Part shown: piece after piece, positions 22,149 through 26,775 of the stretch | Numbering within the stretch: position 1 is the stretch's first letter | Layout of the letters: every line of letters starts with the position of its first letter | Origin: Gammaproteobacteria bacterium | GTDB lineage: Bacteria; Pseudomonadota; Gammaproteobacteria; SZUA-229 | Direction: 5' to 3' | Length of the DNA stretch: 64,000 nucleotides | Assembly: GCA_026195895.1 (NCBI GenBank) | Contig: JAPHRO010000033.1 | Coordinates: 1 to 64,000, forward strand | Notes under the pieces: generated by a model | Databases searched by the model: none | What the model saw: only the letters and a program-made list of their open reading frames with translations | What the model was told of the DNA's origin: nothing | Translations under genes and position numbers: made by a program

Positions 22149-22880
22149 TCATGGCTTAAAATCTCCCCATATTGTTTGTATCACAGTAATACCAGCGATG
22201 GCCGCAGTTTCTGTTCTTAATATTCTTGGTCCAAGTCGGATGCCTTTAAATCCTGTTGCTCGAGCATAATTTATTTCATCGTCAGATAAACCGCCTTCTG
22301 GTCCTATGAGTAAGTTAACAGATTGAGATTCGGGTTTTAGTGAATGTATGTTTGTCTGTCCTTCGGGATCAAGCGTCAATTTGAGTCCGTCAAGATTGAG
22401 CTGGTTCAATTCTGAAAGTTTAATTGAGGGTAATAGTTCTGGAACAATATTGCGTCCGGATTGTTCACAGGCATTTATGATAATACCTTGCCAGTGGCGC
22501 ATTTTTTTTCCCTGGCGCTCACCTTTTAAATTGACAACGGTACGCTGACAAACAACAGGCAGAATTTTTTGTGCGCCCAGTTCGACCGCTTTCTGGATGC
22601 TAATATCCATGCGCTCACCTCTGGAAACTCCTTGTAATAAAGTGATGTGTAAATCTGATTCGGTATTGATGTTATGGAAGTCGCCAATATGTGCCAGAAT
22701 TTTTTTGCCGCTATATTTCAGTCGAGCAGAATATTCTCCACCTCTGCCATTAAACAGGTTTATTTGATCTTCATGTTTAAGGCGTAAAACGTTTTTCAGA
22801 TGATGAGTGGCTTCCTTGCCGAGTTCAACCAGGCTGTCTGTTTGCAGATCTATATCCTGATATATGCGAACAGTTCTCAT
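22149..22880 (-). CDS. rsmE: 16S rRNA m3U1498 methyltransferase
   Basis: A 243-residue SPOUT methyltransferase that methylates U1498 of 16S rRNA. It shows the N-terminal PUA-like part (HHLKNVLRLKHEDQINLFNGRGGEY), QKAVELGAQKILPVVCQRTVV and the knotted SAM-binding C-terminus LLIGPEGGLSDDEINYA...RLGPRILRTETA. The track's start at 23006 would overlap metF by over 120 nt; ATG 22880 (MRTVRIYQDI) is the family start and lies 4 nt after the metF stop. It is therefore the last gene of the metF transcript. Confidence 0.95.
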   Translation of the reverse strand: MRTVRIYQDIDLQTDSLVELGKEATHHLKNVLRLKHEDQINLFNGRGGEYSARLKYSGKKILAHIGDFHNINTESDLHITLLQGVSRGERMDISIQKAVELGAQKILPVVCQRTVVNLKGERQGKKMRHWQGIIINACEQSGRNIVPELLPSIKLSELNQLNLDGLKLTLDPEGQTNIHSLKPESQSVNLLIGPEGGLSDDEINYARATGFKGIRLGPRILRTETAAIAGITVIQTIWGDFKP

Positions 22881-22884
22881 GGCT

Positions 22885-23736
22885 TTATAAGGAAAGATTA
22901 TTCCAGATGCGCAATGTCGCTTCGGATTGATTGAGTGTGTAGAAGTGTAATCCAGGCGCACCTGCATCCAGTAAGCGTTGACACATGTCAGTAACGACAT
23001 CGGCACCCAGATCTTTTATGGCATCTATGTCATCACCCAGCCCCAGCAGGCGTTTGCGCAACCATTGTGGTATTTCTGCACCACAGGCACTCGAAAAACG
23101 TGCCAGACTGCTGTAATTAGTAATGGGCATGATGCCCGGCATAATGGGGATGTCGATGCCCATTTTTTCGCAGCTTTCCACAAATCGAACATAGGCATCA
23201 ATGTTATAGAAATATTGAGTAATCGCAGTGTTGGCGCCCGCTTCAACTTTACGTTTGAAGTTTTTTAAATCCTGTTCCGCAGTTTCGGCCTGCGGGTGAA
23301 ATTCAGGGTAGGCGGCCACTTCTAAATGAAAATGATCACCATGCTCCTGGCGAATAAAGCTCACCAGTTCATTGGCATAATTAAAATCTCCCGGCGAAAC
23401 CATGCCCGAAGGGATGTCACCGCGCAAGGCGACAATATGTTTTATTCCCTGGGATTTGTAATTATCAAGAATATCTGCAAGCTGCTGTTTGGTTGAGCCG
23501 ATACAGGATAAATGCGGGGCAACGCTCACACCTGAACTTTGATTAATTTGTGTGACCGCATCAAAGGTTCGATCTCGAGTTGAGCCACCGGCACCAAAGG
23601 TAACGGAGAAATATTCCGGGTTAATTGCGTCTTTCAGTGTGTTGCTGGTGGCAACAAGTTTTTCCATGCCCTGATCAGTTTTGGGCGGAAAAAATTCGCA
23701 ACTGAAACTGCGCTCGAATTTTTTTTGAGATTCCAT
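22885..23736 (-). CDS. metF: 5,10-methylenetetrahydrofolate reductase
   Basis: A 283-residue FAD-dependent TIM-barrel enzyme that makes 5-methyl-THF for methionine synthesis. Family motifs are SCEFFPPKTDQGMEKL, FSVTFGAGGSTRDRTFD, HLSCIGST, IVALRGDIP, TQYFYN and PIMPGIMPITNY. It lies after ahcY on the same strand with an 81-nt gap that contains a strong hairpin and a TATACT motif, so it may be transcribed separately from ahcY. With metK and ahcY it completes part of the activated methyl cycle. Confidence 0.96.
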   Translation of the reverse strand: MESQKKFERSFSCEFFPPKTDQGMEKLVATSNTLKDAINPEYFSVTFGAGGSTRDRTFDAVTQINQSSGVSVAPHLSCIGSTKQQLADILDNYKSQGIKHIVALRGDIPSGMVSPGDFNYANELVSFIRQEHGDHFHLEVAAYPEFHPQAETAEQDLKNFKRKVEAGANTAITQYFYNIDAYVRFVESCEKMGIDIPIMPGIMPITNYSSLARFSSACGAEIPQWLRKRLLGLGDDIDAIKDLGADVVTDMCQRLLDAGAPGLHFYTLNQSEATLRIWNNLSL

Positions 23737-23817: not shown

Positions 23818-25227
23818 TTAGTAGCGGTAATGATCCGGCTTGTACGGGCCATCAACAGGGACATTAATATAATCAGCCTGCTCCTGGCTCAGTATCGTCA
23901 GGTCCGCACCAATTTTATCCAGATGCAGACGTGCTACTTTTTCATCCAGATGTTTTGGCAGAATATAAACTTTATTTTCATAGTCATCAGGATTATTAAA
24001 GAACTCGATTTGTGCCATGACCTGGTTAGTGAAAGACGCAGACATAACAAAACTTGGATGACCGGTGGCGCAACCCAGATTAACCAGGCGACCTTTAGCC
24101 AGAATGATAATGCGTTTGCCGTCAGGGAAAATCACGTGATCAACCTGTGGTTTGATTTCTTCCCACTCATATTTTTCCAGTGAGGCAATATCAATTTCTG
24201 AATCGAAGTGACCAATGTTACAAACAATCGCTTCGTTTTTCATGGCAGCCATGTGATCGTGGTTGATTACACTTACGTTACCGGTAGTGGTAACAAAAAT
24301 ATCACCCATGCTGGCAGCATCATTCATATCAACGACTCGATAACCTTCCATCGCTGCCTGCAGTGCACAGATAGGATCAATCTCGGTGACCAGTACAGTC
24401 GCGCCCATGCCACGGAATGCCTGCGCACAGCCTTTGCCAACATCACCGTAGCCCAGTACAACACAGATTTTACCGGCGATCATGACATCTGTTGCGCGCT
24501 TGATACCATCCAGTAATGATTCACGACAGCCGTACAGGTTATCGAATTTGGATTTGGTGACCGAGTCATTTACGTTCATGGCAGGGAACATCAGTTCACC
24601 GGCTTCCATCATCTGGTATAAGCGATGCACACCAGTTGTGGTTTCTTCAGTAACACCTTTAACGTCGTTGACGATTTTGGTCCACTTGTCAGAGCCGGGA
24701 GTGATAGTACGTTTGAGTACATCGATAATGGCTTTCCATTCTTCGTTATCGTTGTCTCTGGCATCGGGAACAGCTCCGGCTTTTTCGTATTCCGCACCTT
24801 TGTGAACCAGTAATGTGGCATCGCCGCCATCATCCAGAATCATGTTGGGTGTGCCGCCGTCAGGCCAGGTCAGTGCCTGTTCAGTACACCACCAGTATTC
24901 GTCGATGGTTTCACCCTTCCAGGCAAATACAGGAATGCCCTGATCAGCAATGGCTGCGGCGGCCTGATCCTGGGTCGAAAAAATGTTGCAGGAGGCCCAA
25001 CGGACTTCGGCACCCAGGGCGACCAGGGTTTCGATCAGTACCGCAGTCTGGATAGTCATGTGCAGGCTGCCAGTAATACGAGCGCCTTTTAGCGGTTTTT
25101 CATTGCCGTATTCCTCACGCAATGCCATCAGTCCTGGCATTTCGGTTTCGGCAATTTTGATTTCCTTGTGACCCCAGTCAGCAAGGGATATATCGGCAAC
25201 TTTAAAATCAGTGAACTCAGCACTCAT
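23818..25227 (-). CDS. ahcY: S-adenosylhomocysteine hydrolase
   Basis: A 469-residue cytoplasmic NAD-dependent enzyme that splits SAH into adenosine and homocysteine, relieving product inhibition of methyltransferases. It shows [40 protein letters not shown], the NAD loop [18 protein letters not shown] and the C-terminal KPDHYRY. The length includes the roughly 40-residue insertion typical of proteobacterial enzymes. AGGAG lies 8 nt before the ATG. An SAH-riboswitch-like aptamer is 39 nt upstream, and metK is the upstream neighbour. Confidence 0.97.
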
Positions 25228-25266
25228 CGTTCATCTCCTGTATCTTTAGTATGGAAATTAATAAAT

Positions 25267-25322
25267 GAGCGCCGTTTTGGATTCTGAGCCTGACAGGATA
25301 GACCTGTTGCAGCGCTCCTCAG
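25267..25322 (-). promoter_or_regulatory. SAH riboswitch aptamer upstream of ahcY
   Basis: On the minus strand the 56 nt reads CTGAGGAGCGCTGCAACAGG...TGTCAGGCTCAG...AACGGCGCTC. These are the conserved blocks of the S-adenosylhomocysteine riboswitch: GAGGAGCGCUGC, CAGGCUC and GGCGCUC. CUGAG can pair with CUCAG, and GAGCGC with GCGCUC. It lies between the metK stop and the ahcY start, with the ahcY Shine-Dalgarno only about 28 nt after it. SAH riboswitches normally turn ahcY expression on when SAH builds up. With so short a platform, control at the ribosome binding site is likely (inferred). Confidence 0.88.
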
Positions 25323-25349
25323 AAATTATGGGTGATTTACACCGGGGGA

Positions 25350-26510
25350 TTAGAGTCCAGCCGCATCTTTCAATGCTGCGGCTTTATCTGTTTTTTCCCA
25401 GGTGAAATCAGCTTCTTCACGGCCGAAGTGACCATAGGCTGCCGTGTTACGATAAATTGGTCGCAACAGGTCCAGCATCTGGGTCAGGCCTTTGGGTTTA
25501 AGGTCGAAGTGTTCACGCACCAGTTCAACTATGCGTGCATCATCAATTTTGCCGGTACCAAAGGTTTCCACCGAAATTGAAGTGGGTTCAGCGACACCAA
25601 TGGCGTAGGACACCTGGATTTCACATTTGTCGGCCAGGCCTGCAGCAACAATGTTCTTGGCCACATAACGACCGGCATAAGCGGCGGAACGATCTACTTT
25701 GGAAGGGTCTTTGCCGGAGAACGCACCACCACCATGACGGGCCATGCCGCCATAGGTATCAACAATGATTTTTCGGCCAGTCAGACCGCAGTCACCGACC
25801 GGGCCACCAATAACAAAGTTGCCGGTAGGGTTAATAAAGTATTTGGTGTCTTTGCTAATCCATTCTTTGGGCAGTACCGGCGTGATGATTTCATCCATTA
25901 CCGCCTCGCGCAACGCTTCCAGCGAAATATCAGGATTATGCTGGGTAGATAGTACCACGGCATCAATAGCCGTAGGCTGGCCATCTTCATAACGGAAAGT
26001 GACCTGGCTTTTCGCATCGGGACGTAACCAGGGCAGCGTACCGTTCTTGCGGACTTCTGCCTGGCGTTTAACCAGTTTATGCGCATAAGTAATGGGTGCC
26101 GGCATCAGTACATCGGTTTCGTTGCTGGCATAGCCAAACATCAGGCCCTGGTCGCCCGCGCCCTGTTCATGGTCTGAGGATTCGTCGACGCCCATGGCAA
26201 TATCTGCAGACTGCTTGTCGATGGAGGTAATAACCGCACAGGATTCCCAGTCGAAGCCCATTTCAGAGCTGTTGTAGCCAATTTCTTTAACGGTTTTACG
26301 TACGATCTCCTGCATATCCACCCAGGCAGATGTAGTGATTTCGCCGGAGAGGATAACCATGCCCGTGTTAACCAGTGTTTCACAGGCAACGCGTGCTTTA
26401 TTGTCCTGTTCGAAAATGGCGTCCAGGATGGCATCGGAAATCTGGTCCGCGACTTTATCTGGATGACCTTCAGAAACCGATTCAGATGTAAATAAATGGC
26501 TATTTGACAT
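25350..26510 (-). CDS. metK: S-adenosylmethionine synthetase
   Basis: A 386-residue enzyme that makes SAM from methionine and ATP. Motifs: [34 protein letters not shown] (the GAGDQG loop) and [19 protein letters not shown]. The track's start at 26549 adds 13 residues; ATG 26510 ([12 protein letters not shown]) matches the family and has GAGGAAA upstream. The 5' leader of about 220 nt carries an SAH-riboswitch-like aptamer, an unusual pairing. ahcY follows 122 nt downstream with its own aptamer. Confidence 0.97.
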
Positions 26511-26663
26511 GGTATAAATTTCCTCGTTGCTATCGTTAACGATTAGCAAATACGCTGTGTATTAAATGTATCAGGATGAGGAGGATCGCTGTTCATGGCA
26601 GTTGGTATGCCAGAAGATTTCAGATCTACGCTCATTCTTTAGCTTTGCTAGAGACTAATAAAT

Positions 26664-26725
26664 GAGCGCCGTTCGTATATAGATGCACCGAGCCTGACAG
26701 AGAAATCTGCTGCAGCGCCCCTCAG
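26664..26725 (-). promoter_or_regulatory. SAH riboswitch aptamer in the metK leader
   Basis: On the minus strand the 62 nt reads CTGAGGGGCGCTGCAGCAGA...CTGTCAGGCTCGG...GAACGGCGCTC. It has the same conserved blocks, in the same order, as the copy before ahcY and as the known SAH riboswitch family. It begins just after a TATAAT box and ends about 150 nt before the metK ATG. The 14-nt string GCGCTCATTTATTA at its 3' edge is shared exactly with the ahcY copy, so the two probably arose by duplication. Confidence 0.85.
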
Positions 26726-26736
26726 TGCGGAGGAAG

Positions 26737-26742
26737 ATTATA
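26737..26742 (-). promoter_or_regulatory. Candidate -10 box for metK leader
   Basis: TATAAT on the minus strand, with the riboswitch-like aptamer starting 12 nt downstream. Transcription would thus begin almost exactly at the aptamer. No good -35 hexamer is seen at 16-18 nt. Confidence 0.45.
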
Positions 26743-26775
26743 GACGAAATGTTTTGAAATGGCTAATAGCCTGAT

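Follow-up and report, generated by a model that had tools for sequence, protein, structure and literature searches.

The metK mRNA in the window, a stretch of 64,000 nucleotides from an uncultured gammaproteobacterium that was analysed as a whole, opens with a riboswitch of the S-adenosylhomocysteine (SAH) class. It is likely, on the evidence below, that this element turns translation of metK ON by a relay of alternative helices and that the neighbouring ahcY gene is under a second copy of the same riboswitch. The aptamer class is known and the target gene is new; the expression platform is probably new as well.

The metK aptamer and its operon

The promoter, the aptamers and the genes of the operon are, from upstream to downstream:

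26737..26765, minus strand: sigma-70-like promoter TAGCCA-17-TATAAT before the metK aptamer (10/12 matches)
26657..26729, minus strand: SAH riboswitch aptamer of metK (RF01057, 60 bits, gathering score 37)
26715..26720, minus strand: 5' strand of the P4 pseudoknot, GGGCGC (full pairing with 26669-26664)
25350..26510, minus strand: metK, SAM synthetase (TIGR01034, 634 bits; the single match in the genome)
25260..25326, minus strand: second SAH riboswitch aptamer, before ahcY (RF01057, 62 bits)
23818..25227, minus strand: ahcY, SAH hydrolase (TIGR00936, 651 bits)
22885..23736, minus strand: metF, methylenetetrahydrofolate reductase (TIGR00676, 349 bits)

An Rfam covariance scan of the 64-kb window against 4227 families matched the metK leader to RF01057 at 26729-26657 (minus strand) over the whole model (positions 1-78 of 78), with 60 bits against a gathering score of 37 and an E value of 1.5e-8. 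This places an SAH riboswitch directly upstream of metK, as a first-pass annotation had proposed when it named scoring with this covariance model as the check. The conserved aptamer blocks claimed there are all present, namely the core bases GCUGC, CAGGCUC and AACGGCGCUC (alignment and base counts) and the P4 pseudoknot, in which GGGCGC and GCGCUC form six standard pairs out of six; the span it gave, 26664-26742, takes in the -10 box and the aptamer as far as P4 reaches. Only two matches in the whole window exceeded their threshold, both to RF01057. The second lies between metK and ahcY, 1.4 kb downstream of the first, and was absent from the annotation; the two copies are the only SAH riboswitches of this genome.

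The six P4 pairs are likewise all standard in the metK aptamers of the window's own bacterial family (f1, 13/13) and of two others (f3, 46/46; f75, 16/16), with compensatory changes across families (GAGCGC/GCGCUC to GAACGC/GCGUUC). When the window is compared with its three nearest metK-type relatives, identity amounts to 90-96% in the aptamer as against 54-69% in the distal leader, which indicates that the aptamer is under selection. The element occupies the sense-strand leader of a SAM-cycle gene. Judged by aptamer and target gene, its assignment as a full-score SAH riboswitch is well supported, and we infer that it binds SAH.

The TATAAT box noticed ahead of the aptamer is found at 26742-26737 with TAGCCA 17 nt upstream. 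Taken alone, this promoter site is no better than chance in a shuffle test; a -10 box with a TTAGCCATTT-like -35 box is seen again in most f1 metK leaders. The genes follow in the order metK-ahcY-metF. The end of metF is overlapped by a frame at 22149-23006 (minus strand), which we take to be an rsmE-like 16S rRNA methyltransferase gene. This frame may be set beside the COG1385 gene that has been reported within SAH riboswitch operons of Moraxellaceae (PMC4239095).

Distribution of the metK placement

The placement before metK is conserved and not isolated. In f1, whose order has no second family in the genome set, RF01057 matches are present in 47 of 54 genomes. With downstream genes identified by tblastn, the riboswitch precedes metK in 13 of them, and in the other f1 genomes examined its sole position is the interval from metK to ahcY. 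A second copy before ahcY accompanies the metK copy in four of the 13 (the window genome, G002, G005 and G014); in the remaining metK-type genomes the metK copy was found alone. A class-wide sample gave matches in 154 of 369 genomes, and among the 146 matches placed relative to metK, a count that excludes f1, 112 lie in the gap after the gene, 31 away from it and 3 before it. Weaker matches added further cases before metK: G212, G414 (f3), G396 (f178) and G411 (f154). Within f3, 46 of 57 genomes have matches, and 46/46 lie before metK. In the order to which G127 (f75) belongs, a spacing of about 1.3 kb separates the two copies present in many genera, and all 17 two-copy f75 genomes examined have one copy before metK and the other before ahcY. 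With one genome each in f154 and f178, the metK placement is seen in five bacterial families; the count of metK-associated matches in relatives, which the first-pass annotation had suggested, thus stands at 13 in f1, 46/46 in f3, 17/17 in f75, and 1 each in f154 and f178.

The f1 genomes in which the riboswitch precedes metK form part of one weakly resolved group in a MetK tree; this group also includes a genus with ahcY copies only. Lineages without an observed arrangement of this kind separate f1, f3 and f75, and f3 groups with a Piscirickettsiaceae MAG. Several recruitments, or one old recruitment followed by many losses, are both possible histories. That the metK leader gained its riboswitch by recent duplication of the ahcY one was considered and rejected: the f1 metK aptamers resemble each other (0.77-0.96) more than they resemble the window ahcY copy (0.65-0.71), so that any duplication must be old.

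Two variations were observed among the aptamers of the other families. The f3 metK aptamers (L142-L144, L187-L231) have UAGG for CAGG and AACYGCG for AACGGCG and reach lower scores (35-59 bits), and their ligand specificity may differ. In one f75 genus (L238-L241, L246) the ahcY copy has lost bases of P4 (ACGCUA) and scores near or below threshold, and the metK copy is intact; control in this genus appears as if shifted to metK.

Expression platforms of the ahcY and metK leaders

The elements that take part in the predicted switching are:

26661..26669, minus strand: segment 1, GCGCTCATT, the 3' strand of P4 and also the switch strand (from the sequence)
26629..26636, minus strand: segment 2, AATGAGCG, the complement of segment 1 (anti-aptamer hairpin), extending to GATC at 26626-26623 (hairpin 1-2 compared with shuffles)
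26576..26587, minus strand: segment 3, GATCCTCCTCAT, a possible partner of segment 2 or of the metK Shine-Dalgarno sequence (predicted folds)
26529..26547, minus strand: small hairpin GCTAATCGTTAACGATAGC, lying a few bases upstream of the Shine-Dalgarno sequence of metK (from the sequence)
26521..26525, minus strand: segment 4, metK Shine-Dalgarno sequence GAGGA (predicted access)
25228..25239, minus strand: ahcY Shine-Dalgarno sequence and ATGAACG, the latter complementary, with one mismatch, to CGCTCAT in the second aptamer (direct platform)

In ahcY leaders, the P4 3' strand GCUCAU lies opposite AUGAGC, which adjoins the Shine-Dalgarno sequence and the start codon, and segment 1 pairs better with its cognate start region than with swapped ones (p=0.0002 over 32 ahcY leaders). 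The f75 metK leaders have segment 1 opposite the opening codons of metK, as where CUCAGUCAU faces AUGACUGAG, again with cognate partners better than swapped ones (p<0.0002), and the short f154 metK leader likewise shows direct pairing of segment 1 with the start region of metK. In the long f1 and f3 metK leaders, segment 1 instead lies opposite a downstream AAUGAGC-like segment 2. The hairpin 1-2 formed by these segments beats shuffled sequences in the window leader (p=0.003) and in 59/59 of the long f1 and f3 leaders of metK (p 0-0.08), where, as for the other tests given here, the p values overstate independence because the sequences are related. The first-pass annotation had put the distance from aptamer to metK at about 150 nt (146 nt to the ATG as found here) and considered it long enough for a platform different from that of ahcY. 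By sequence the two platforms do differ: in ahcY the P4 3' strand itself pairs with the start region, whereas in metK a distinct hairpin is used, probably together with a relay.

For the later steps of this relay, the pairs between segments 2 and 3 covary by eye (AGUC/GACU versus UGUC/GACA, UGUAG/CUACA versus UGAAG/CUUCA, GUUG/CAAC versus CUUG/CAAG). Cognate 2-3 partners exceed swapped ones in f1 group a (p=0.025) and in both f3 groups (p<0.0002); the same test gives no significant result in f1 group b, to which the window belongs (n=8). Pseudoknots fall outside secondary-structure prediction, and P4 was imitated by masking both of its strands. The lowest-energy folds of the window leader show the switch: in the free fold UCCUC pairs with GAGGA, whereas with P4 masked the 2-3 helix forms and GAGGA is open, the predicted unpaired probability of the Shine-Dalgarno sequence rising from 0.12 to 0.42. 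Across f1, occupying segment 3 raises mean Shine-Dalgarno access from 0.11 to 0.40, as compared with 0.27 for control windows (p=0.024). In f3 the effect does not exceed that of control windows (p=0.52), and in the leader analysed here a masked segment 3 (0.24) has no advantage over other masked windows (0.28). The stem of the small hairpin GCTAATCGTTAACGATAGC is apparently kept, by eye, despite base changes in several relatives. Whole-leader equilibrium folding was rejected as sole evidence, being too blunt: in f75 and ahcY leaders it leaves Shine-Dalgarno access almost unchanged despite clear pairing in the start region. A leader peptide beginning in segment 2 (ATGAGCGTAGATCTG..., 30 codons, AhcY-like start) was also rejected, since it varies in length, has no visible Shine-Dalgarno sequence and is not conserved; mean lengths of the segment-2 frame are 18.8 versus 16.2 expected in f3 (near random) and 24.7 versus 15.9 in f1 (somewhat longer).

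The comparison of leaders supports the first switching hairpin 1-2 well, and the 2-3 helix and the 3-4 sequestration partly. Because the segment-3 step is significant in f1 but not in f3 or in the window alone, the relay is the best model for the long metK leaders and is not proven. According to this model, segment 1 (GCGCUCAUU) would pair with segment 2 (AAUGAGCG) when SAH is lacking, and segment 3 would be left free to mask the metK Shine-Dalgarno sequence, segment 4. In the presence of SAH, segment 1 would be taken up by the P4 pseudoknot, segment 2 would then pair with segment 3, and the released Shine-Dalgarno sequence would allow translation. The second riboswitch would control ahcY by direct pairing with the ahcY start region.

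SAH binding could instead control metK at the level of transcription, for example if Rho-dependent termination took place within the 146-nt leader in the absence of ligand. Such control would fit a leader of this length, in which hairpin 1-2 is distant from the start codon and the Shine-Dalgarno relay is supported only partly. We consider it unlikely, since the metK leader has no intrinsic-terminator-like site, for which reason an intrinsic terminator was also rejected as platform, the metK leaders that were read show no clear U-run behind their hairpins, and in the short leaders of f75 and f154 the start region itself is the partner of segment 1.

The sign of the switch could also be the opposite one, the metK copy binding SAH yet acting as an OFF switch, unlike the ahcY copy. 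Segment 2 is purine-rich like a Shine-Dalgarno sequence and could not mask it, predicted Shine-Dalgarno access increases when P4 is formed (0.12 to 0.42), and the direct f75 metK leaders are compatible only with ON control. These observations make an OFF switch quite improbable, even though repression of metK is the action of many SAM-type riboswitches and the sign depends on the number of relay steps, one of which is weakly supported. A metK copy that has switched its ligand, for example towards SAM, is more improbable still: the window copy retains CAGGCUC and AACGGCGCUC and comes close in score to the genome's ahcY copy, and no match to RF01727 (SAM/SAH) or to other SAM families occurs in the window. 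SAM would suit a metK gene, and copies in other families do vary in the core (UAGG for CAGG, AACYGCG for AACGGCG), but identical core variants are also found before ahcY. For translational control by SAH, we infer that the direction in the cell is ON.

Relation to known systems and significance

The remark in the first-pass annotation that known SAH riboswitches mostly sit on SAH-recycling genes agrees with a 2014 survey of about 200 proteobacterial genomes, which explicitly states that metK is not controlled by SAH riboswitches (PMC4239095); PMC3766115 makes no mention of metK. The placement described here conflicts with this published generalisation. The metK element shares with RF01057 the full-length covariance match, the P1/P2/P4 layout, the core bases and the position in the 5' leader of a SAM-cycle gene, whereas the published targets are ahcY, metF, metH and few others, and the metK leader is longer and has a separate anti-aptamer hairpin. 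Similarly, the SAM/SAH riboswitch RF01727 lies directly before metK in Rhodobacterales (PMC2864571), but it has another, smaller aptamer that does not discriminate between SAM and SAH; RF01727 gave no match in the metK leader, and only RF01057 reached threshold in the window. The SAM-Chlorobi motif RF01724 is also an RNA of metK and ahcY operon leaders (PMC2864571), but it is a separate family with no match in the window. The core SahR regulon includes metK together with ahcY, metF and metH (PMC4239095), and an increase of metK by SAH therefore has a protein precedent, although SahR is a regulator acting on DNA and the sensor here is RNA. A limited literature search found no SAH-responsive control of metK by SAH riboswitch RNA, SahR being the only precedent.

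SAM-dependent methyltransferases are strongly inhibited by SAH, and the SAM:SAH balance therefore sets the methylation capacity of the cell. An increase of SAM synthetase by SAH through an RNA would amount to feed-forward control and run counter to the repression that SAM usually exerts on metK. The metK placement corrects the published statement on the reach of the SAH riboswitch class and provides natural pairs in which the same aptamer is joined to different platforms in one operon. More tentatively, and with the case close to balance, SAH riboswitches may have been recruited to metK more than once in Gammaproteobacteria, the long leaders using an undescribed two-step relay of anti-aptamer and anti-sequestor hairpins, and SAH may drive both SAM production and its own removal from one operon with two sensors. 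With two such sensors, SAM production and SAH removal would rise together, and the cells would probably make more SAM as SAH builds up.
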